From Methanomicrobium sp. W14 (GTDB lineage Archaea; Halobacteriota; Methanomicrobia; Methanomicrobiales; Methanomicrobiaceae), in contig NZ_JAGGMM010000002.1 of the NCBI RefSeq assembly GCF_017875315.1, forward strand, positions 62,001-126,000: DNA of 64,000 nucleotides, given 5' to 3'. This document shows, piece by piece, positions 15,860-28,136 of this stretch (the first letter of the stretch is position 1; each line of letters opens with the position of its first letter). The notes beneath the pieces were generated by a model. The model made no database searches, had not been told where the DNA came from, and saw nothing but the letters and a program-made list of their open reading frames with translations. The position numbers and the translations under genes are program-made.

Positions 15860-15961
15860 TCATCCGAGGATGAGAACAATAAATGCTATTACTCCTGCTG
15901 CAAGCGTAAAAAAGCCTGCAATCCGCATTAAAACAAGGATATTCTGCGGGCTCAGTGCCAT
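15860..15961 (-). CDS. 33-residue membrane protein at the end of the ATP synthase operon
   Basis: Too short for routine calling. The ATG at 15959-15961 overlaps the last codons of atpD in another frame and is preceded by GGAGGGGGG, an excellent ribosome binding site. The peptide is [17 protein letters not shown] followed by a single hydrophobic helix (FTLAAGVIAFIVLILG). Its place after subunit D corresponds to that of the small ahaG gene reported in the Methanosarcina aha operon, but I cannot show homology. It may be a small ATP synthase accessory or assembly factor. Translational coupling to atpD is likely. Confidence 0.65.
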   Translation of the reverse strand: MALSPQNILVLMRIAGFFTLAAGVIAFIVLILG

Positions 15962-16605
15962 CGCCCCCCTCCTTTGAGGATTGCCTTGGAACGTTTGCGC
16001 CTGAAGAGGTCTTCTCTTTCCAGCTCTTCAAGGTAGTTTTCTATGTATTCGGAAGTTGCATTAAGGGACGGGATAAGCATGTTTTCAAGTGCGTTGACCC
16101 TACGGCGGGTTTTTTTGATCTCGTTTTCAAGTGATAATACTACCCCCTCGGCTTCGGCCAGTCTTAAAAGGGCGATGACAAGCTTTTCAAATTCACGGGA
16201 GGCCCGGTCGGTGTATGTCGTCGTCTCGGTTATGCTGTAGCCGAAGACTCCCTGACTTCGCAGTTTTTCCGGAATTGTAATCTCAGGCACGACTCTTCCC
16301 ATAATGCTTCTTGTAAGCATGTCGATGTCATGCATTTCGTCCGCGGTCTTTGAAACCGCCTCAAGATTTCTCCACCCTGTGCTCATAACGGCCCGGGCAA
16401 GGCTTTTGTGAGCCGTTTGCGCCTGCTTCGAGCACTTTTCCCTGAGAACGTCACGCTCTGTTTTCATGCGTGAAATCTGGTTTGTCATCGCGTCGAGTTT
16501 GTCCTGCAAAAGCTCAAGTCCCCTCTGTGAAAGAAGGATTCTTTTGCGCACCTTCTGAAGTCCAATCCTTGTCGGTTTTGTTCCGGGGATAATTTTTGCC
16601 TTCAT
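15952..16605 (-). CDS. atpD: A-type ATP synthase subunit D
   Basis: 217 residues, central rotor stalk subunit D. It has the family N-terminus ([34 protein letters not shown]) and two long coiled-coil helices, one at each end ([34 protein letters not shown] near the C-terminus), that form the shaft inside the A3B3 head. The C-terminus KGGGRWH doubles as the ribosome binding site of the small ORF that follows. The start overlaps the atpB stop by four bases (ATGA). Confidence 0.97.
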
Positions 16606-17996
16606 TCAAACTTTTCCCCGTTTACGTAGTATTTTTCGATGTATTTTTCATCAATTCTTTTGAGTCCCTCTTTCGGAAATTTAGAGAGCAGTCTCCACGA
16701 AAGGCTGAGCGTCTCTTCGATGCTTCTTCCCTCGTTCTTGTTCTGGCTTACAAATTCCTTTTCAAAAGTGTCGGCAAAAGACAGGTACAGCCTGTCGGAA
16801 GGGCTAAGGCTTTCGTCCCCTATGACCGCGACAAGACTCTGGAGCTTTCTTCCCCTGGCATATGCGGCGTAAAGCTGGTTTGTGACGTCTGCATGGTCAC
16901 CGCGGGTTTTGCCTTCTCCGATTCCGCCCTTCATCAGGCGTGAAAGACATGGGAGTACATCTATCGGCGGATATATGCCTTTTCTGTGGAGGTCACGGGA
17001 CAGGACAATCTGTCCTTCGGTGATGTAGCCCGTAAGGTCGGGGACCGGGTGCGTTATGTCGTCGTCAGGCATAGTAAGAATGGGCAACTGCGTAATCGAG
17101 CCTTTTTTCCCTTTAATCCTTCCTGCACGCTCGTAAATTGAGGCAAGGTCGGTGTACATGTACCCGGGGTACCCCCTTCTTGCAGGGACCTCCTCCCTGG
17201 CTGCCGAGACCTCCCTTAAGGCCTCGCAGTAGCTTGTGATGTCCTGTAAAATTACAAGGACGTGCATACCATCGTGAAAGGCGAGGTATTCTGCGGCCGT
17301 CAGGGCAATCCTTGGCGTAATGATTCTTTCTATCGCAGGGTCATCGGCATGGTTTATAAACAAAACCGCATGTTCAAGTGCTCCGGTGCGTGAAAACTCC
17401 TCCCTGAAATAGTGGTCTTCGTCGTAAGTTATTCCCATTGCGCCGAAGACTATTGCGAAGTCCTCTTTTTCCCCCAGGACCCGGGCCTGCCTTGCTATCT
17501 GCGCTGCAAGCCTTGAGTGGGGCATACCGGAACCGGAAAATATCGGGAGCTTCTGGCCACGTACAAGCGTGTTCATGCCGTCTATCGCGGATATCCCTGT
17601 TTCTATAAAATCCTCCGGGTATTCGCGTGAGTACGGGTTTATCGAGTAGCCGTTGATATCTAAGACTTTTTCAGGAATTACGTCCCCTCCGCCGTCAGAG
17701 GGCTCTCCGTCACCGCTGAACACTCTCCCGAGCATATCACGCGAAACTCCGGTCTTCATAGGTGACCCCGTAAACCTTACCGACGTCACGTCAGTGTCGA
17801 GGTCGCTTGTCCCTCCATACACCTGTACAATGGCAAAACCCTTTGCAGTCTCGAGCACCTCTCCTTTCTGTATCGTATTGTCGGGGAATTTTACGAAGAC
17901 AAGCTCCCCGTAGGAAGCGTCCTCTATGCCTTCGACTGCCAGAAGAGGCCCGGAAACCCTTACGACAGATACAAATTCCCTGCCTTTTTCAGTCAT
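16602..17996 (-). CDS. atpB: A-type ATP synthase subunit B (regulatory)
   Basis: 464 residues, the normal length. This is the non-catalytic subunit of the A3B3 head: the P-loop position is degenerate ([18 protein letters not shown]), as expected, while the region [20 protein letters not shown] matches the family. The start overlaps atpA by eight bases and follows GGAGGCGGCG. It alternates with subunit A around the D/F shaft. Confidence 0.98.
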
Positions 17997-19770
17997 CGCC
18001 GCCTCCTGCGAGAACCGAGTCTATGCCTGATTTCAGTGATTTAATAACACCTGTACAGAATTCGGCAATTTCGTCCTCCGGTCTTGCACCGAGATGGGTG
18101 AAACCCTGCATTGCCGGAAGTGCCGAGATTTCAGACGTTAAGGCTCCCTTTTTGACCGCCTCGCCTGCAGTCCTGAAGAAGTCAGTAATAAGTTTCATCA
18201 TCATCTCCTGCTTGAAGGGAGAGCAGTAGCGGTCCTGCGGGTCGGTCGCATACTGGACAAGAAAAGACTCTTTTATGATGTCAGCAGAAAGGAGCACAAG
18301 TTTGTCCTCCTCGGGGAGTACGTCAGGGCCTACAAGCTGCACAATCTCCTCAAGCTCGCTTTCCTTCTGGAGGATGCTCATCATTGTCTGCCGCATCTCC
18401 TTCCAGTTCTCCTTTGTTTTCTCCTCCCACCATGACGCAGTAAGCTCGGTATAAAGTGAGTATGACAAAAGCCAGTTTATAGCTGGAAAATGCCTTTCAT
18501 GTGCAAGGTCTGCATCAAGGGCCCAGAATGCACCCGTTATCCGGAGGGTATTCTGGGTTACGGGTTCAGAGAAGTCTCCTCCGGGAGGCGAGACAGCTCC
18601 GATGACGGATATCGACCCGTTCCTCTCTTCGCTCCCGAGGACTTTTGCACGTCCTGCTCTCTCGTAGAACCCGGCAAGCCTTGATGCAAGATATGCAGGG
18701 TATCCCTGCTCTCCCGGCATCTCTTCTAGCCTTCCGGATATTTCACGCATAGCCTCGGCCCAGCGGGAAGTAGAGTCCGCCATTAGGGCTACGTCGTAAC
18801 CCATGTCGCGGTAGTACTCAGCTATTGTTATTCCTGTGTATACGCTCGCCTCTCTTGCCGCAACCGGCATATTGCTTGTGTTCGCGATAAGGACCGTTCT
18901 CCTCATAAGCGGTTTGTGTGTTTTCGGGTCTTCGAGAACCGGAAATTCACGCAGGACATCGGCCATCTCGTTTCCCCTCTCGCCGCATCCTACGTATACA
19001 ATAATGTCGGCATCTGACCACTTTGCAAGCTGGTGCTGAACGACGGTCTTTCCCGCACCGAAAGGCCCCGGGACTGCCGAAGTGCCGCCCTTTGCTATTG
19101 GAAAAAGTGTATCTATAACCCTCTGGCCGGTTATAAGCGGCTCTTTGGGGTCAAGTTTTTTCCTGACAGGCCTCTCTTTTCTTACAGGCCAGTGCCTGAG
19201 GATTTTTACGGGGAATTCTCTGCCTTTTTCAGTCCTGATTTTTGCAATGATGTCTTCTATGGTATATTCCCCTTTTGGCGCCGTCCATACAAGCTCACCT
19301 GAAATACCCGGGGGGACGAGAATTTTGTGTGTAATGCTTTCCTCCGGGACTGTCCCGAGTATATCCCCTTCTGATACCGGGCTGTTTACTGTTATCCGGG
19401 GGGAGTATTCCCATAGGCGTTCTCTGTCAAGTGACGGGATGTCGGTCCCCCTTATTATAAAATCGCCGACAGATTCGCTCATTTTTTCAAGTGGTCTCTG
19501 GATGCCGTCGTATATCATGCCGAGAAGGCCGGGCCCGAGTTCTGCCGAAAGGGGCATTTTTGTCCCCTCTACAGGTTGTCCCGGAAAGAGCCCTCTTGTA
19601 TCCTCATAGACCTGGACTGTTGCGGTGTCCCTTTCAAGCGATATCACTTCCCCTACAAGCTTCTCGTCACCTGCCCTGACGAGTTCATACATCTGCGTTC
19701 CCCTCATGTTTTCGGCGGTTATTACCGGGCCTGCTATTTTTACGATTGTTCCTGCGGGATTGTCCTTCAA
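17989..19770 (-). CDS. atpA: A-type ATP synthase subunit A (catalytic)
   Basis: 593 residues. The catalytic P-loop is [17 protein letters not shown], and the non-homologous insertion typical of A/V-type A subunits lies between about residues 110 and 200. The start is TTG at 19768-19770 (TTGA overlap with the atpF stop), preceded by GGAGG at good spacing. It is the nucleotide-hydrolysing or -synthesising subunit. No intein interrupts the P-loop, unlike in some archaeal homologs. Confidence 0.98.
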
Positions 19771-20027
19771 TTCTTCTGCCTCCTGTAACCGGGAAGTGAT
19801 ATTATGACAGGGTAGGGGTACCTTGTCTGGCTCAGGCCTTTTATGTCGGCTTTCATCTCTTCTGCATATTCTTCATCTATTACGATTACTCCGACATCCT
19901 CCTGCATTGCATATTCCCTGAGTGCTGCTGTCGCCTCTTTTTTGTCTTTGCACGCTTTTGAACAGACTGTTCCGGCGAGTGCAAATCCTGCCGCAGTCTC
20001 CTTTGGACCGATATATGAAATTTTCAT
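19767..20027 (-). CDS. atpF: A-type ATP synthase subunit F
   Basis: 86 residues, slightly shorter than the usual ~100. It has a Rossmann-like small fold (ISYIGPKETAAGFALAGT, VGVIVIDEEYAEEM, YPVIISLPG) and binds the top of the D shaft. It overlaps atpC by ATGA and atpA by TTGA, so translation is coupled on both sides. The position between C and A is the standard one. Confidence 0.95.
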   Translation of the reverse strand: MKISYIGPKETAAGFALAGTVCSKACKDKKEATAALREYAMQEDVGVIVIDEEYAEEMKADIKGLSQTRYPYPVIISLPGYRRQKN

Positions 20028-21184
20028 GTCTCCTCTGAAAAGACCATCATACCCATGATATCTTCGGGTGCCATTCTTTCCGTGACACCTGTATATGTGG
20101 CTGTCAGGTTTTCGTACTCTATTCTTCTTGCATATGCGTACCTGATGAGAGGGCCGCTTCCGAGGTGATATCTTGATGAAAGGTTGTCTGAGACTTCAAG
20201 AAGCATTTTTTCCAGTTCTTTTTCAGGACTTGCGCCTTCCCTGAAGGCATTTTCCATTGCATCCCGGTAAACCGTACTGCGGCAGGCTTCTTTTAGCTCC
20301 TCCTTTGTCCTGCTCATGGAAAGACTTTTGAGACTGTCGCCGTGAAATTCAAATCCCCCTTCTGTCATAAGCATGGCCTTATGTCCGCTGTCAAGCCCCA
20401 AAGAGACCGCACGACAGAGATTTTTCAGGTTTTGGACATCTATAAGATGTCCTGTGAAGAGAGCCAGGGGCTCTGCAAGGCTTACGTCCACCTGGGCCGA
20501 TGCGAAGGCGAGCGAGTCGCACAGGTGACGGTCAATTACAAGCTCCGCCGACTGAAGCGTTTCGTCCTCCATATCGTATTCTTCAGGGATAAGGTCCAGG
20601 GAATAAAGGATGCTTCTGATGTCACTTTCTGTCTTCGTAGATGATATCCTCCTGTTTATCCTGTCTGTAAACATACCGACGGGGACGGTTTTCGGGCTTA
20701 TTCCTCCTCTGAGGGCCCTGAGCATATACTTTATTTCACCTGCTTCGGCAAATTTCATGTAGGCCTCAAAAAAGGGCCTGACGGATTTAGGGACAGTGTC
20801 AAGCAGTTTTTCAAGCGATAAATAGTATTCCCTCCTGAAGTACATCCCGCTCTCCTCTTCATTCATGACCCTGTGGGAAGATAGCCCGTACCCGAATTTT
20901 CTTAAGTTTTCCGTTATCTCTTCTGCGGACAGGGACCCTGCAAGGGTTTCAAGTGTGTCTTTTTCAACGAGAGGGTTTCCTATCGCTCTGACCCTTGCGA
21001 CCGGGTGAGCGAAGTCCGCGATGTTTAATATCAGCCTTATATACCCGGAAAAGACCGCAGCGCCGATGATTATCGCAATGAGTACTCCGAATACGAAGAG
21101 TATTACTGCATAATCACCATTCTGACCTGTAAAAGACCCTGAAATAAGGTCTGATACAGCCTGCGAGGGGTCAAATTCTGCCAT
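20024..21184 (-). CDS. atpC: A-type ATP synthase subunit C with N-terminal membrane helix
   Basis: 386 residues. From about residue 60 it is the usual all-helical C/d subunit that caps the rotor ring (ARVRAIGNPLVEKDTLETLA, later FKSGHKAM-like and FREGASPEKELEKMLLE segments). It also carries an N-terminal extension with a strong membrane helix at residues 25-47 (YAVILFVFGVLIAIIIGAAVF), which soluble archaeal C subunits normally lack. This would tether the socket to the membrane or ring. The start ATG overlaps atpE by 14 bases. Confidence 0.93.
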   Translation of the reverse strand: MAEFDPSQAVSDLISGSFTGQNGDYAVILFVFGVLIAIIIGAAVFSGYIRLILNIADFAHPVARVRAIGNPLVEKDTLETLAGSLSAEEITENLRKFGYGLSSHRVMNEEESGMYFRREYYLSLEKLLDTVPKSVRPFFEAYMKFAEAGEIKYMLRALRGGISPKTVPVGMFTDRINRRISSTKTESDIRSILYSLDLIPEEYDMEDETLQSAELVIDRHLCDSLAFASAQVDVSLAEPLALFTGHLIDVQNLKNLCRAVSLGLDSGHKAMLMTEGGFEFHGDSLKSLSMSRTKEELKEACRSTVYRDAMENAFREGASPEKELEKMLLEVSDNLSSRYHLGSGPLIRYAYARRIEYENLTATYTGVTERMAPEDIMGMMVFSEET

Positions 21185-21755
21185 ATAACATCATTGCGGT
21201 ATCGTGGATAAGCTGTTTTTTCTGCCGTTTCAGCCTTTCCCGAAATGTCTGGTCAATTCGTATCTCCGGGTTTTTTGAATATATTATGACTCCGGTGCTG
21301 GTAATTGTCTCATCTGACAGCCTGATATTTTCATAGACGCTGATGATTTCAGAGACTATTCTTTGGTCCTCTCTTCTTGCGATAACGTATACCTCACCGT
21401 CCCCGGTTTCGTTTGCACCTTCCTCTATCAGCTTCCGGAGAATTTCCGGGTATTTTTCGTCTGAATAGATGTTGTCAAGCCTTTTTTCAGCTTCCAGGAT
21501 GCATTTCTCTATGCCTTCCTCCTTTGCCTCGCGTACAAGCCTGTTCGCTTCGAGGCGTGTGAGGGACAGAAGTCTTCTCTCCTCCTCAGAGAATTCCCTC
21601 TTTTTTTCACTGATGAGAGCTGCAGATCCCAATTCAGCCTCCTCCAGGGCCATATTAAGAATCTCATCACGTCTTTTTTCCGCGTCTTCCCTGACAGACC
21701 TGATCTTTTTTTCTGCGTCCTCTCTAATCTGTCTTATAATCACTTCAGAGCTCAA
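21171..21755 (-). CDS. atpE: A-type ATP synthase subunit E (peripheral stalk)
   Basis: About 194 residues. The N-terminal half is a charged coiled coil (IREDAEKKIRSVREDAEKRRDEIL) that pairs with subunit H, and the C-terminal half is the globular head-binding domain. The frame is open to a TTG at 21782 inside atpK, but the TTG at 21753-21755 has GGGGGA eight bases upstream, lies just after the atpK stop and gives the normal family start, so I prefer it. Confidence 0.93.
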   Translation of the reverse strand: MSSEVIIRQIREDAEKKIRSVREDAEKRRDEILNMALEEAELGSAALISEKKREFSEEERRLLSLTRLEANRLVREAKEEGIEKCILEAEKRLDNIYSDEKYPEILRKLIEEGANETGDGEVYVIARREDQRIVSEIISVYENIRLSDETITSTGVIIYSKNPEIRIDQTFRERLKRQKKQLIHDTAMMLYGRI

Positions 21756-21759
21756 TGTT

Positions 21760-23208
21760 TTATCCCCCGTTGAAAAGGCCAAGGCCGAACATTATGAGAA
21801 TTGCTATAAGAAGGCCGAATATTGCAAAGGTTTCAGCCATCACGGTGAAAATAAGGCTTCTTCCCATAGCGTCCTTTCCTGAGGCCGTTGCGGCTATTCC
21901 TGATGCTGCTGTCATTCCCTGTCCTATTGCCGAAAGTCCGGCAAGTCCTGTTGCAATGCCTGAACCGATGGAAGCAAACCCGACTGCCGCTGTTATCGTC
22001 ACGTTTTTCGTGATGATTCCCGTAAACGCCATAAGAAGAATTGCAACCAAAAGCCCGTAAATCGCCTGAGTTTCAGGTATCACGGTAAATACAAGAGATT
22101 TTCCAAACATCTTCTCCTTTTCCGATGTCGTGGCAATTCCTGACGCCGCGGTAATCCCCTGTCCGATTCCTGAAAACCCTGCAAGTCCTACAGCAATTCC
22201 TGACGCAACAGACGCCATCCCTGCTGCAGCCGTTGCAACGAAATCTCTTGTAATCATCCCTGTAAACGCCATAAGAAGAATTGCGATTAAAAGTCCGTAA
22301 ATCGCCTGTGTTTCCGGAATAACCGAGAAAACGAGTGACTTTCCAAACATCTTCTCCTTTTCGGTCGTTGCCGCGATTCCGGCTGATGAAGCAATCCCCT
22401 GACCGATTGCCGAGACCGCGGCAAGGCCTGCCGCAAGACCGCAGCCGACTGCTGCAATTCCGTAGGAAATGTCGGATACAGGATTTTCGGTTACGATACC
22501 GGTGAATGTCATGATAAGGATTGCGACTAAAAGTCCGTAAATCGCCTGCGTCTCGGGAATTACCGAGAAAACAAGCGCTTTTCCAAAGATATCCTTCTTT
22601 TCGGAAGATGCCGCAATGCCACCTGATGCGGCTATCCCCTGTCCGATTGCCGAAAGACCTGCAATTCCCACCGCAAGTCCGCAGCCTATGGCCGCAAGTC
22701 CGGTCGCGGTTGTTGCGGAAGGGTTTCCTGAAAGAAGTCCTGAGAATGCAAGGATAAGGATTGCGACCAAAAGCCCGTAAATCGCCTGTGTCTCGGGGAT
22801 TACCGAGAACACGAGTGATCTCCCCATGTTTTCGTCCTTTTCGGCCGTTGCCGCAATCCCTGATGACGCCGCAATCCCCTGTCCGATTGCGGATAAACCG
22901 GACACTCCTGCTGCGATTCCTGCACCGAGAGCCATAAGTCCGGATGCAATGGAGATGTCTTCTCCACTGCCGCCTATTATTCCGGTGGAAAGAAGAATCA
23001 GGATTGCGGCAAGAAGCCCGTAAATTCCCTGAGTCTGCGGAACCGCCTGGAATACCAGCGCTTTCCCGAATTTTTCCGGGCGGACCGAGGTTACGCCTGC
23101 AGCAGTCGCACCAGCAATTCCCACACCAATTCCTGATCCTACGGCGGCCATTCCCACGGCCGTTCCGGCCCCTATGACTGCAAGTGCAAGCCCGGGGGTT
23201 ATTGTCAT
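21760..23208 (-). CDS. atpK: A-type ATP synthase subunit K: six-hairpin fused rotor proteolipid
   Basis: 482 residues instead of the usual ~80-160. The protein is six tandem two-helix hairpins with exact 80-residue spacing of the carboxylates: Glu139, 219, 299, 379 and 459, each in xPET or AET before (Q/F)AI(Y/F)GLL. The preceding helix of each of these hairpins has an IGQG glutamine. Hairpin 1 has PQTQGIYG, so Gln58 replaces Glu, and its first helix lacks the IGQG glutamine. Hence five of six hairpins can bind an ion; Q plus ET resembles Na+ ligand sets of related rings (inference). The start overlaps the atpI stop (ATGA). Confidence 0.97.
   Translation of the reverse strand: MTITPGLALAVIGAGTAVGMAAVGSGIGVGIAGATAAGVTSVRPEKFGKALVFQAVPQTQGIYGLLAAILILLSTGIIGGSGEDISIASGLMALGAGIAAGVSGLSAIGQGIAASSGIAATAEKDENMGRSLVFSVIPETQAIYGLLVAILILAFSGLLSGNPSATTATGLAAIGCGLAVGIAGLSAIGQGIAASGGIAASSEKKDIFGKALVFSVIPETQAIYGLLVAILIMTFTGIVTENPVSDISYGIAAVGCGLAAGLAAVSAIGQGIASSAGIAATTEKEKMFGKSLVFSVIPETQAIYGLLIAILLMAFTGMITRDFVATAAAGMASVASGIAVGLAGFSGIGQGITAASGIATTSEKEKMFGKSLVFTVIPETQAIYGLLVAILLMAFTGIITKNVTITAAVGFASIGSGIATGLAGLSAIGQGMTAASGIAATASGKDAMGRSLIFTVMAETFAIFGLLIAILIMFGLGLFNGG
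22041..23010 (-). repeat. 240-base tandem repeats within atpK
   Basis: The hairpin units are visible as DNA repeats: a segment reading gtaaatcgcctg followed by (a/t/c)gt(t/c)tc recurs at 240-base steps near 22057, 22297, 22537 and 22777. Identity is high enough that unequal crossing over could change the hairpin number, which makes the region a possible assembly risk. Confidence 0.8.
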
Positions 23209-25184
23209 TTCGAATCACTCTCCTTTACTGTGTACCTGCGCCTGTACGTGAACGGTCTGAAGGTCTCTCCGCCTCCTTCATAAAATTTGCCGAAAAATTC
23301 AACATACTGGAGTCTTAAGGAATGGATGAACCCGCCCAGCACCTGGAGCAGAAAGTTTGCCGCATGCCCGCCGATACAGATTACAGCCGCAATTATGACG
23401 AATACCGGGCCTGCGTCCGCTACCATTCCTGAAATTATGTTGATTGTCATGGCAATACCGACAGTAGCAAGGGCAAGAGCCAGTATACGCGAATAGGACA
23501 GCCAGTCCCCGAGAAATCCGGTGAGGCTGAAGAAGCCCAGGGGCCCTTTTGACACCATGATGACCGATACTGCAAAAAGTGCCCCGAGAGATGCCGTCAT
23601 TATAATTTCCCCGGAGAAGTCTGCCCACCCGAAGAACGAGAAGAGGAGTATTGCCGCACACGGCTCAAGCAGAAACCATATCCCCTGCTCTTTAAGCATT
23701 TTTGGGATGTTTTTTTCGATGATGTTTTTTCTGGCACCAAGTATCAGCCCTGCGTTTATATGGATTATTCCGAATACAAGAGAGAATACGAGGAGTCCTA
23801 TCGGGTCTTCGAGAGGGTTTAATATCCCCGGGAAGGGGTTTTCAGCCGTAAAACGCGACAAAAAGTCCCCGAAAAATCCTCCCTCCACGTAGCCGAAGAA
23901 AATGCTTGAAATCCCGCACGCCAGAAATACGACGGACAGGTCGTGCACACTTCCGTCTTCTCTTCCTGCACCGTTTAAAAGAAGAATGCTCAGGACTGTC
24001 AGGATAAGGCCGTAGCCGATATCTCCCAGCATTATCCCGAATGTTACGACAAGGACAGGTGCAAGGAAAAATGTCGGGTCAATCTCTTTGTATTTTGGTG
24101 CTGCAAAGAGGTTTGTCAGCATTAGGAACGGGTGCAGGAGAGGACCGTGGGGGCAGAGTACCGGAATTTCCTCCTCACAGTCTTCATCAGGCTCTTCAAA
24201 TAAGCACAGAGACCTGCCGGATGAAGATTTTTCGCAGAGTTCTTCAAGTTTTTTTCTGTCCTTTTCAGGCACCCATCCCCTGATATATGTCAGGTTTTCA
24301 TCAGAGCCTGCCATCATAAGGCCCTCTTCGCGGCTTTTTAGAACGGCGGTCTCTTCGTGAATTGCACAGAGGGGCAGGTAAATCTCCTTTTTTATCTCCT
24401 CCTTCTCTTTCTGCATTTCTTTTTTTTGCGTCCTGAGGGATTCGGTCTCCTTCTCAATTGCTGAGACCGCTTCCTTTGCTCTGCCGAGAGGTCTGTCCGG
24501 CACAAACTCCCTGAATGAATATTTTTTCAGGGCGTTTTCCACTTCGTCCAGGCAGCTTAAATGGCAGGCTACGACAGCGGCATGACCACATTTAATCTCC
24601 GTTTTTTCAATGACAAATCCTTTTACTCCCCTGTTTTCAAGAAAATTTTCAAAAAGCTCCAGGTGTCCGTCGTCAAAAAATCCGGCTTTTACCGACAGGA
24701 ATTCTGTTTTTCCCAGGTATTCAAAATTAAGGTTGAGCGGGACGAAAAAACCGGCGAGTCTTTTTTCTTCCTCAAGAAGCCTGATGTTTTCGTCTGTCTC
24801 CTCAAGGGAGGCTTCAAGTTCCCCGGCGCGGACTATTTTGGGACGCATCAGTTCCGATTTTGCCTGCAGGTCTTTCAAATCTGATGTTTTAATTGTAATC
24901 TTTTCGTATTTTTCAGGGGCAAAATAGGATATTATTTCCGAAAATCCGCTTTTTTTCTTACCTTTTAGGGTCTCTGTTCCGCGTTCAAGAAATGAGTTCA
25001 GTTCTGAGATTTCCCTGGCAGGAGATGATTTTGGTGCGATGATGTATTTACTGAGTTTTGGGGGAGCCTTGCTGATTCCGGTAATTTCAATCAGGCCGGA
25101 CTCGTGAAGCCTTTCCGTAAGCTTTTTTTCGTATTTTTTATGGACTATTAAAGTCAGCCTGCACATTTTCGCGGGGGTCAGCAT
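23205..25184 (-). CDS. atpI: A-type ATP synthase subunit I (a subunit)
   Basis: About 659 residues. The N-terminal ~340 residues are cytoplasmic with coiled-coil arms (KEAVSAIEKETESLRTQKKEMQKEKEEI), and the C-terminal part has about eight membrane helices with the stator arginine in LSYSRILALALATVG. It forms the ion half-channels beside the K ring. The frame begins with GTG at 25193; the ATG at 25182-25184 (LTPAKMCRLTLIV follows) has AGGTG at good spacing. It overlaps the end of atpH. Confidence 0.96.
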   Translation of the reverse strand: MLTPAKMCRLTLIVHKKYEKKLTERLHESGLIEITGISKAPPKLSKYIIAPKSSPAREISELNSFLERGTETLKGKKKSGFSEIISYFAPEKYEKITIKTSDLKDLQAKSELMRPKIVRAGELEASLEETDENIRLLEEEKRLAGFFVPLNLNFEYLGKTEFLSVKAGFFDDGHLELFENFLENRGVKGFVIEKTEIKCGHAAVVACHLSCLDEVENALKKYSFREFVPDRPLGRAKEAVSAIEKETESLRTQKKEMQKEKEEIKKEIYLPLCAIHEETAVLKSREEGLMMAGSDENLTYIRGWVPEKDRKKLEELCEKSSSGRSLCLFEEPDEDCEEEIPVLCPHGPLLHPFLMLTNLFAAPKYKEIDPTFFLAPVLVVTFGIMLGDIGYGLILTVLSILLLNGAGREDGSVHDLSVVFLACGISSIFFGYVEGGFFGDFLSRFTAENPFPGILNPLEDPIGLLVFSLVFGIIHINAGLILGARKNIIEKNIPKMLKEQGIWFLLEPCAAILLFSFFGWADFSGEIIMTASLGALFAVSVIMVSKGPLGFFSLTGFLGDWLSYSRILALALATVGIAMTINIISGMVADAGPVFVIIAAVICIGGHAANFLLQVLGGFIHSLRLQYVEFFGKFYEGGGETFRPFTYRRRYTVKESDSK

Positions 25185-25500
25185 TTTCTGCACCTGTTGC
25201 GAGATTTATGATATATTCAACTGCACTTTCGTATTTTTGTGTCCCTGATTCCCTGAGTTCTTTTGCTGTCTTTTCTGCTTTCAGCATTATTTCTGATCTT
25301 TTTCTGCCGGCTTTTTCAAGTGTATACAAGGCAAGGTTTTCTGCCTCCTCCTCTGCACTTTTTCTTTTTTCTTCGATAATTTCAAGGCCCCTGGCCTTTG
25401 CCTTCTTTAAAATCTCCTCAGCTTCTTTTTCGGCGTATCTGATATCTTCAAGGGCTTCCTCTTCATTTTTTTTGATAAGCTCTATCTCATGGTATGACAT
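25138..25500 (-). CDS. atpH: A-type ATP synthase subunit H (peripheral stalk)
   Basis: 120 residues, almost entirely an Ala/Glu/Lys-rich coiled coil (IKKNEEEALEDIRYAEKEAEEILKKAKARG), the partner of subunit E in the stator stalk. It is the first gene of the ATP synthase operon. The start ATG at 25498-25500 gives the family length; the ribosome binding site is weak (GAGCAATC). A TATA-like element lies 50-60 bases upstream. Confidence 0.93.
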   Translation of the reverse strand: MSYHEIELIKKNEEEALEDIRYAEKEAEEILKKAKARGLEIIEEKRKSAEEEAENLALYTLEKAGRKRSEIMLKAEKTAKELRESGTQKYESAVEYIINLATGAENADPRENVQADFNSP

Positions 25501-26453: not shown

Positions 26454-28136
26454 ATGGACAATTATGCAGATGAGCTGTCTGAAATTCTCAGTACTTTAAA
26501 GGAAAACCCGCGTGGGCTTTCTGTCAGTGATATTGCACTTAGGATAGGTGTCAACAGGAATACCGTTTCAAGGTACCTTGACATGCTCAGAATATCCGGT
26601 CAGGTTGACATGAAAATCTACGGGAAGGCGAAAGTTTTCTTCATCTCACAGCGTGCACCAGTATCCGCAATGCTCAATTTTTCTTCAGACATGGTCGCGG
26701 TAATAGACAGTGACATGCAGATTGTCCAGGTCAACGACGCCCTTTGCAGCCTTTTAAATATTGACCAAAGTGAAATTATTGGCAAAAAATTACGTGATTC
26801 TCCACTTGTCGGCTTTGATCACCCGCTTATAAACGAGAGGATGAAGGCTGCCCTTGAGGGCAGCGAGACTGAAGACGAAATAAAAATCGTCCGGATTGAT
26901 GAAGAGAGATATTACAGGATAAGAATAATTCCTACAGTCCTGAACGATTCTTCTCCAGGAATCACTGTAATGCTTGAGGATACGACCGGACAGCGCCGGG
27001 CAAGGGATGCGCTTGAAAAGAGCGAGCATAATTTCAGGTCCCTTGTGGAAGAGATAAACGACGCCATCTGGAATATTGACGAGGACGGGGTGTTTCTCTA
27101 CGCAAGTCCCCGTACTGAGGCGGTTACAGGTGTCAGTGCGGATGAAATTATCGGCAAATCACTTTTTGACTACATGGACACTGATTCCTCTGCTTTTTTC
27201 AGGGAATCTATGCAGAATGCAAAGAAAAGAAAAAAGGCTGAGCTCCTGGAGTGCACAATAAAGCGCGTTTCTGGAAAAAATGTCAGAATTGAGGCAAGTA
27301 TATCCCCCAAATTTGATGGAACCGGTTATCTTACCGAGTTCAGGGTTGTAAGCCGTGACATATCCGCCAGGTTTGATGCTGTAAAAGGCCTTTTCAAGTG
27401 GAAGTCTTTTCTAAGCTCGATTGTCCAGAACATTCCCCTGATGGTCCTTGTAAAGGAGGTCAGAAAGGGCACCTATATCTTCTTCAACAGGTCTGCCGAG
27501 GATTTCTTCGGTCTCAACGGTGAAAGCTCGGTAGGAAGGATGGGATGTGAGCTTTTTGCCGATAAAATAACCGAGTGTTTTGTATCCGGTGACAGAGAGG
27601 TCGTCTCCACCAAAAAACCAGTGTTTCTCCATGAGTTTCAGGCAAAATCTAATTCTGGCACTCTGAGGGTTCTTAAGGTCAGGAAAGTCCCCATACTCGG
27701 TCCTGATGAAAATCTTGAGTACATTATGACCATTGCGGAGGACATAACCGAGCAGAAACGTGCCGAAGAAGAGATAATCGCCCAGCGTGACCAGGCCCAG
27801 AGCTACCTGGATGTGGCGGGAGTCATGATAGCTGTCGTAAACAGAAATGGCATGATAGAGAGCCTGAACAAAAAAGGATGTTCTCTTTTAGGCTACGAGG
27901 AGAGTGAGATTGTTGGCTCAGACTGGTTTATGACCGTCGTCCCCCAAGACCTCCGTGACGGACTCAGGAGAGGTTTTGACCTGGCGATAAACGGAGGATG
28001 CATCCCTAAACCCGGTGAACACGGAAGGCTTCTAAGAAAGGACGGGACAGAAATTGCAGTAGACTGGTATAATACTTTCCTTAAAAACTCAAAGGGCAAA
28101 ATAATCGCGATGGTCTCATCTGCATCCGAAAACTAG
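26454..28136 (+). CDS. HTH-PAS transcriptional regulator (one-component)
   Basis: 560 residues. Residues 1-60 form a winged HTH (ELSEILSTLKENPRGLSVSDIALRIGVNRNTVSRYLDMLRISGQV). Four PAS domains follow, at about 70-180, 190-310, 320-435 and 440-555 (for example FRSLVEEINDAIWNIDEDGVFLYASP). There is no histidine kinase or receiver domain, so sensing and DNA binding are in one chain, an architecture frequent in Methanomicrobiales. The ligand is unknown. It has a strong TATA box with an inverted repeat upstream and a terminator-like hairpin downstream. Confidence 0.9.
   Translation: MDNYADELSEILSTLKENPRGLSVSDIALRIGVNRNTVSRYLDMLRISGQVDMKIYGKAKVFFISQRAPVSAMLNFSSDMVAVIDSDMQIVQVNDALCSLLNIDQSEIIGKKLRDSPLVGFDHPLINERMKAALEGSETEDEIKIVRIDEERYYRIRIIPTVLNDSSPGITVMLEDTTGQRRARDALEKSEHNFRSLVEEINDAIWNIDEDGVFLYASPRTEAVTGVSADEIIGKSLFDYMDTDSSAFFRESMQNAKKRKKAELLECTIKRVSGKNVRIEASISPKFDGTGYLTEFRVVSRDISARFDAVKGLFKWKSFLSSIVQNIPLMVLVKEVRKGTYIFFNRSAEDFFGLNGESSVGRMGCELFADKITECFVSGDREVVSTKKPVFLHEFQAKSNSGTLRVLKVRKVPILGPDENLEYIMTIAEDITEQKRAEEEIIAQRDQAQSYLDVAGVMIAVVNRNGMIESLNKKGCSLLGYEESEIVGSDWFMTVVPQDLRDGLRRGFDLAINGGCIPKPGEHGRLLRKDGTEIAVDWYNTFLKNSKGKIIAMVSSASEN

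Follow-up and report, generated by a model that had tools for sequence, protein, structure and literature searches.

The window analysed here, a stretch of 64,000 nucleotides from Methanomicrobium sp. W14, carries on its minus strand a complete V/A-ATPase operon with the gene order H-I-K-E-C-F-A-B-D, composed of the following genes:

25138..25500, minus strand: subunit H, peripheral stalk (weak match to AhaH)
23205..25193, minus strand: stator subunit I (among solved structures, closest to subunit I of the E. hirae Na+-ATPase)
21760..23208, minus strand: subunit K, 482 residues, six c-type hairpins with five complete predicted ion sites
21171..21782, minus strand: subunit E, peripheral stalk (assigned from its position and from matches to the counterpart gene of related operons)
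20024..21184, minus strand: subunit C, rotor-to-stalk connector
19767..20027, minus strand: subunit F (assigned from its position and from related operons)
17989..19770, minus strand: catalytic subunit A, with the P-loop GPFGAGKT present
16602..17996, minus strand: subunit B
15952..16605, minus strand: subunit D, central stalk

The stator subunit I matches the E. hirae subunit I with an E-value of 3.9e-51, as compared with 3.4e-24 for Thermus, and both of its essential-type arginines align with those of the E. hirae protein (motifs SYSR and LRLQYVEFF). The complete operon and these stator arginines assign K to the rotor subunits of V/A-type ATPases. Upstream of the operon, a divergent gene (26454-28136, plus strand) encodes a protein with a PAS domain and a winged helix, a possible regulator. 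Inspection by eye revealed no conservation of this gene in other related operons, nor, in the flanks of eight related operons, any shared neighbours hinting at physiology or Na+ export.

The K gene starts with an ATG and encodes 482 residues, in which Pfam reports six ATP-synt_C stretches (PF00137; protein E-value 1.4e-92, 304 bits versus a cutoff of 24). A first-pass annotation made from the letters of the DNA had described six fused hairpins, and this count, as well as its coordinates and residue numbers for K, proved right. The hairpins are distributed as follows:

22969..23208, minus strand: hairpin 1, residues 1-80, with Gln58 instead of Glu and Val29 instead of the inner Gln; Thr59, Gln60, and Tyr63 kept
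23035..23037, minus strand: codon of Gln58, the missing carboxylate
22726..22965, minus strand: hairpin 2, residues 82-161, Glu139, PETQ
22486..22725, minus strand: hairpin 3, residues 162-241, Glu219, PETQ
22246..22485, minus strand: hairpin 4, residues 242-321, Glu299, PETQ
22006..22245, minus strand: hairpin 5, residues 322-401, Glu379, PETQ
21766..22005, minus strand: hairpin 6, residues 402-481, Glu459, AETF, with Phe461 and Phe464 replacing Gln and Tyr

The motif at the carboxylate position reads PQTQ in hairpin 1 (Gln58), PETQ around Glu139, Glu219, Glu299, and Glu379, and AETF around Glu459, with a spacing of 80 residues except for the 81 residues from hairpin 1 to hairpin 2. Val29 occupies in hairpin 1 the position of the S[A/G]IGQG glutamine of hairpins 2-6; the first hairpin is therefore devoid of both the carboxylate and this glutamine, as had been noted. 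Since no exact DNA repeat in the gene exceeds 23 bp and the DNA identity among hairpins 2-6 is only 55-72%, a six-hairpin count produced by an accident of assembly is very unlikely. Collapse or expansion of repeats was rejected on the same grounds and in view of the many intact copies in other genomes; the distinct intact six-hairpin K proteins number 33, several of them from single-contig genomes.

The best PDB match of K is NtpK, the rotor subunit of the E. hirae V-type Na+-ATPase (PDB 2bl2, 8wci), both by sequence (E-value 3.2e-23, in register, with Q110 and E139 coinciding) and by fold, the AlphaFold2 model of K (pLDDT 85, pTM 0.86) superimposing with an rmsd of 1.2 Å over 150 columns. The two-hairpin packing predicted by this model agrees with that of NtpK. 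In NtpK, the ion ligands are Thr64 and Gln65 of hairpin 1 together with Gln110 and Glu139 of hairpin 2, while Tyr68 supports the glutamate (PMC2359735). By analogy, the ion sites of K are expected to lie between neighbouring hairpins, one providing Thr, Gln, and Tyr, and the next one Gln and Glu. Thr59, Gln60, and Tyr63, kept in hairpin 1, would then belong to site 2, and Glu459 and the inner Gln kept in hairpin 6 to site 6, while Phe461 and Phe464 stand in hairpin 6 where a Gln and a Tyr would serve hairpin 1 of the next chain. This pattern holds for all 33 distinct six-hairpin proteins: the five within-chain junctions each possess E, inner Q, T, Q, and Y, the carboxylate position is Gln in hairpin 1 and Glu in hairpins 2-6 without exception, and the hairpin-6/hairpin-1 junction is dismantled by four replacements (E to Q, Q to V, Q to F, and Y to F).

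As the ligands are common to neighbouring hairpins, the dead site should be the joint between hairpin 6 of one protomer and hairpin 1 of the next. The first-pass annotation had placed the loss in hairpin 1 itself; this position is indeed dead, but the site is the joint, and its hairpin 6 half has been lost too (33/33). The Na+-like ligand set proposed there can now be specified as an E. hirae-type set, complete at five junctions in 33/33 proteins, and from these ligands we infer Na+ as the probable transported ion. The same pattern bears on whether K could be cut into single hairpins after its synthesis, leaving the fusion without mechanical meaning. In all 33 proteins, hairpins 1 and 6 each keep only the ligand half belonging to site 2 or to site 6, an asymmetry that freely mixing hairpins would lose, and such cleavage is therefore extremely unlikely.

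The genome harbours a second K gene, located beside other A-ATPase genes (G000:C2:354 kb) and encoding a single hairpin of 83 residues (IPETVVIFGL). A genome-wide Pfam scan returns exactly seven ATP-synt_C matches, six in the K of the window and one in this canonical K. Because of this canonical operon, the idea that the six-hairpin enzyme is the sole ATPase of the cell was rejected; the cell encodes it as an extra rotary ATPase. A tree of catalytic subunits gathers the canonical enzymes with one hairpin in a single clade (100/100, stem 1.01) and places the six-hairpin operons in a separate one (100/98) that also holds the three-hairpin and two of the three four-hairpin operons; the enzyme of the window is thus distinct from the canonical single-hairpin A-ATPase of Methanomicrobiales. 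The branches of subunit A are clearly longer in the accessory operons (window 15952-25500, L096) than in the canonical ones of the same genomes, and K is strongly conserved.

Full-length six-hairpin K proteins, 65-87% identical to that of the window, are encoded by 34 of the 199 genomes of the order, with fragments in about seven further ones and a K reading as three hairpins in twelve. Among the named carriers are Methanocalculus, Methanogenium, Methanofollis, and Methanoculleus; a literature search on Methanocalculus and on second ATP synthases in the three other genera returned no result. Six hairpins had been thought a rare state, which these counts do not bear out: they are a common accessory state within the order. 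Almost every genome of the order has the canonical A-ATPase, whereas the six-hairpin operon is patchy. Of six genomes in the genus of the window, this one alone has the operon, which is dispensable, being missing from other species. This patchiness within the genus, together with catalytic subunits longer-branched than the canonical ones, might be taken as signs of a decaying, non-functional paralogue. All nine genes are nevertheless open, and both the ligands of the five sites and the stator arginines are preserved without variation across the order, making decay very unlikely.

Several multi-hairpin rotors offer points of comparison. K resembles NtpK by its dead first hairpin (PGTQ in E. hirae, PQTQ with Gln58 here) and its live last one (VETY and AETF with Glu459, respectively), both assignments being backed by the hairpin trees, and by a complete Na+ ligand set between hairpins. 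Both stator arginines are likewise shared, NtpK and the E. hirae subunit I being the nearest solved relatives of K and I. It differs by possessing six hairpins and five sites per chain instead of two and one, and by belonging to an archaeal operon, whereas the E. hirae enzyme is a bacterial pump. Among NCBIfam models, the best for K is NF004913 (220 positions, 508 bits versus a cutoff of 211), which we take to represent the three-hairpin K of the Methanocaldococcus/Methanococcus type; the kinship with this type suggested earlier is thereby upheld. In Methanococcus, the three-hairpin K has a first hairpin without carboxylate and two sites, and serves in the main ATP synthase. The K of the window passes the score of this model but has six hairpins and five sites, and lies in an accessory operon. 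In Methanopyrus kandleri, K comprises 13 fused hairpins, all with ligands, and a complete ring is presumed to consist of a single chain (PMC2359735). Both proteins are made of many fused hairpins, but one of six positions is dead here (Gln58, Val29) and none there, which sets K apart from this monomeric type of rotor. Precedents exist both for a K with several hairpins and one dead site, namely the two-hairpin form of E. hirae and the three-hairpin form of Methanococcus, and for the fusion of live hairpins, 13 of them in Methanopyrus. In the literature searched, which covers only a minority of subscription journals, we saw no account of a K with six or four hairpins, of a rule of n-1 sites, or of a dismantled joint between protomers.

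Relatives of K with fewer hairpins form a series. Two hairpins are found in Deltaproteobacteria, Nanohalarchaeota, a Methanosarcinales bin, and other archaea (one K counted here, L098, is a contig fragment); three in the genomes G155, G182, and G047, and in two genera of the family of the window (L049 and L076, counted as three, are contig fragments as well); and four in G203, G320, and G127. Genomes G155 and G182 are presumably Methanospirillum. G155 combines a three-hairpin K of this lineage, as compared with the six hairpins in the window, with a canonical single-hairpin K. Three A-ATPase operons have been reported in Methanospirillum hungatei JF1, and the part of this account that deals with them does not discuss hairpin number or ion sites (PMC4704411). 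These shorter K proteins follow a common plan, with PQTQ in the first hairpin (PGTQ in one of them), [A/S/V]ETF in the last, and [P/C]ETQ between, such that n hairpins provide n-1 sites, the exception being a different operon in genome G207.

In a tree of 118 hairpins, the first hairpins of two-, three-, four-, and six-hairpin K proteins group together (support 99), as do the last ones (96), with the internal hairpins between them; support inside the tree is weak because hairpins are short. The simplest history is that live hairpins were inserted into an NtpK-like chain. Since the four-hairpin operon of G320 lies among two-hairpin operons in the catalytic-subunit tree, this expansion probably happened more than once. 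In one family (f5; L123, L124, L080, L093, L099), every internal hairpin carries CETQ instead of PETQ, in six- and three-hairpin K proteins alike, and these internal hairpins group together (support 96), as if they had been homogenised within the gene or had expanded independently. These two histories are not separable, because position-by-position orthology with the hairpins of other families is rejected for hairpin 4 only (p 0.015, four tests). No complete five-hairpin K was seen among the relatives examined. Two candidates (L045, L046) are truncated at the ends of their contigs and were not counted; neither was the K of Methanogenium cariaci (L047), which displays four motifs but has a wrong frame at both ends, likely due to sequencing or assembly errors.

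These sequences make it likely that the operon encodes a reversible accessory Na+ V/A-ATPase working beside the canonical single-hairpin enzyme, and more likely a pump than a synthase, with clearly lower confidence in the ring size and in the direction of operation. Its rotor would descend from an NtpK-like subunit of two hairpins, the first dead and the last live, through the insertion of four additional live hairpins. Thr, Gln, and Tyr of one hairpin would form each Na+ site together with Gln and Glu of the next; sites so placed between neighbours would give five complete ones inside a single K chain. With the joint from hairpin 6 to hairpin 1 of the next chain dismantled, five ions would pass per six hairpins. 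Two K per ring would yield 10 ions per turn, or 3.3 per ATP, and match the ratio of the E. hirae Na+ pump, which is reversible and for which a Na+/ATP of 3.2 has been measured (PMC12018189). The chief role of the enzyme would be ATP-driven Na+ extrusion, with ATP synthesis occurring only under a high sodium-motive force.

That two K close a 12-hairpin ring, with 10 ions per 3 ATP, is a guess favoured by the hairpin counts, since 2, 3, 4, and 6 all divide 12 and a complete five-hairpin K is missing; this argument rests on a small number of independent events, and the E. hirae ring itself has 20 hairpins, i.e. 40 transmembrane helices (PMC6199243). With three K, a ring would instead comprise 18 hairpins and carry 15 ions (5 per ATP), and with four K, 24 hairpins and 20 ions (6.7 per ATP); either would make a high-ratio synthase operating at low force. 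The 20-hairpin packing of NtpK, the closest solved relative, and its agreement with the two-hairpin packing of the K model point in this direction. However, if ring size is common to the lineage, 18 would be unfit for the four-hairpin relatives and 20 for those with three or six, and the single-hairpin V/A rings of Thermus have 12 according to a reference given in PMC12018189, so that a larger ring seems somewhat unlikely.

The first-pass annotation had proposed that the enzyme is the energy-saving ATP synthase of the cell, the low cost of 10 ions per 3 ATP suiting an energy-limited methanogen. All A-type synthase subunits are present, and such rotary ATPases can run in both directions (PMC12018189). 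Yet it is a large ion/ATP ratio that allows synthesis at low force (PMC12018189): simple arithmetic for 50 kJ/mol gives a required force of about 155 mV at 3.3 ions per ATP versus 130 mV at 4.0. A lower ratio thus needs a larger ion-motive force, unfavourable under energy limitation, and the argument from low ion cost becomes doubtful. Moreover, the canonical A-ATPase is also encoded in this genome and is nearly order-wide, whereas the six-hairpin operon is patchy, and we consider this role unlikely. Its need for a higher force would rather suit the accessory enzyme to Na+ extrusion, or to synthesis only at high force.

Together, the two- to six-hairpin K proteins offer a natural series within one lineage, in which 1/2, 2/3, 3/4, and 5/6 of the hairpins are active. 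Changes of the ion/ATP ratio in rotary ATPases are usually ascribed to ring size, or to half-site loss as in eukaryotic V-ATPases. We tentatively raise the possibility, to which we give well under an even chance, of an evolved gear shift, in which insertion of live hairpins into a K with two hairpins and one site led to three, four, and six hairpins within one 12-hairpin ring. Were this true, ions per turn would rise through 6, 8, 9, and 10 (2.0, 2.7, 3.0, and 3.3 per ATP) at constant ring size, and the number of hairpins would be limited to divisors of 12. The series makes testable how gear ratios evolve, whether a ring is able to rotate with vacant sites at regular intervals, and what a cell gains from two rotary ATPases that differ in their ratio; cells with the six-hairpin enzyme also hold the canonical single-hairpin one and so provide a built-in comparison.

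Some relatives depart from the common plan. The operon of G207 mentioned above (L083, G207:C1:74000-90000), also of the V/A-ATPase type, encodes on the minus strand (about 81671-82618) a three-hairpin K of 244 residues with PQTQ three times, and hence no carboxylate in any hairpin, directly followed by a single-hairpin K of 77 residues with PETQ. If both were built in, few sites of the resulting mixed ring would be active; the two other genomes of the same class are devoid of such an operon. Two different two-hairpin K genes coexist in single genomes in two cases (L084 and L085 in G333; L086 and L087 in G202). Lastly, the K proteins of L085, L091, and L092 display a longer loop between their hairpins, with a motif spacing of 98 residues versus about 80.
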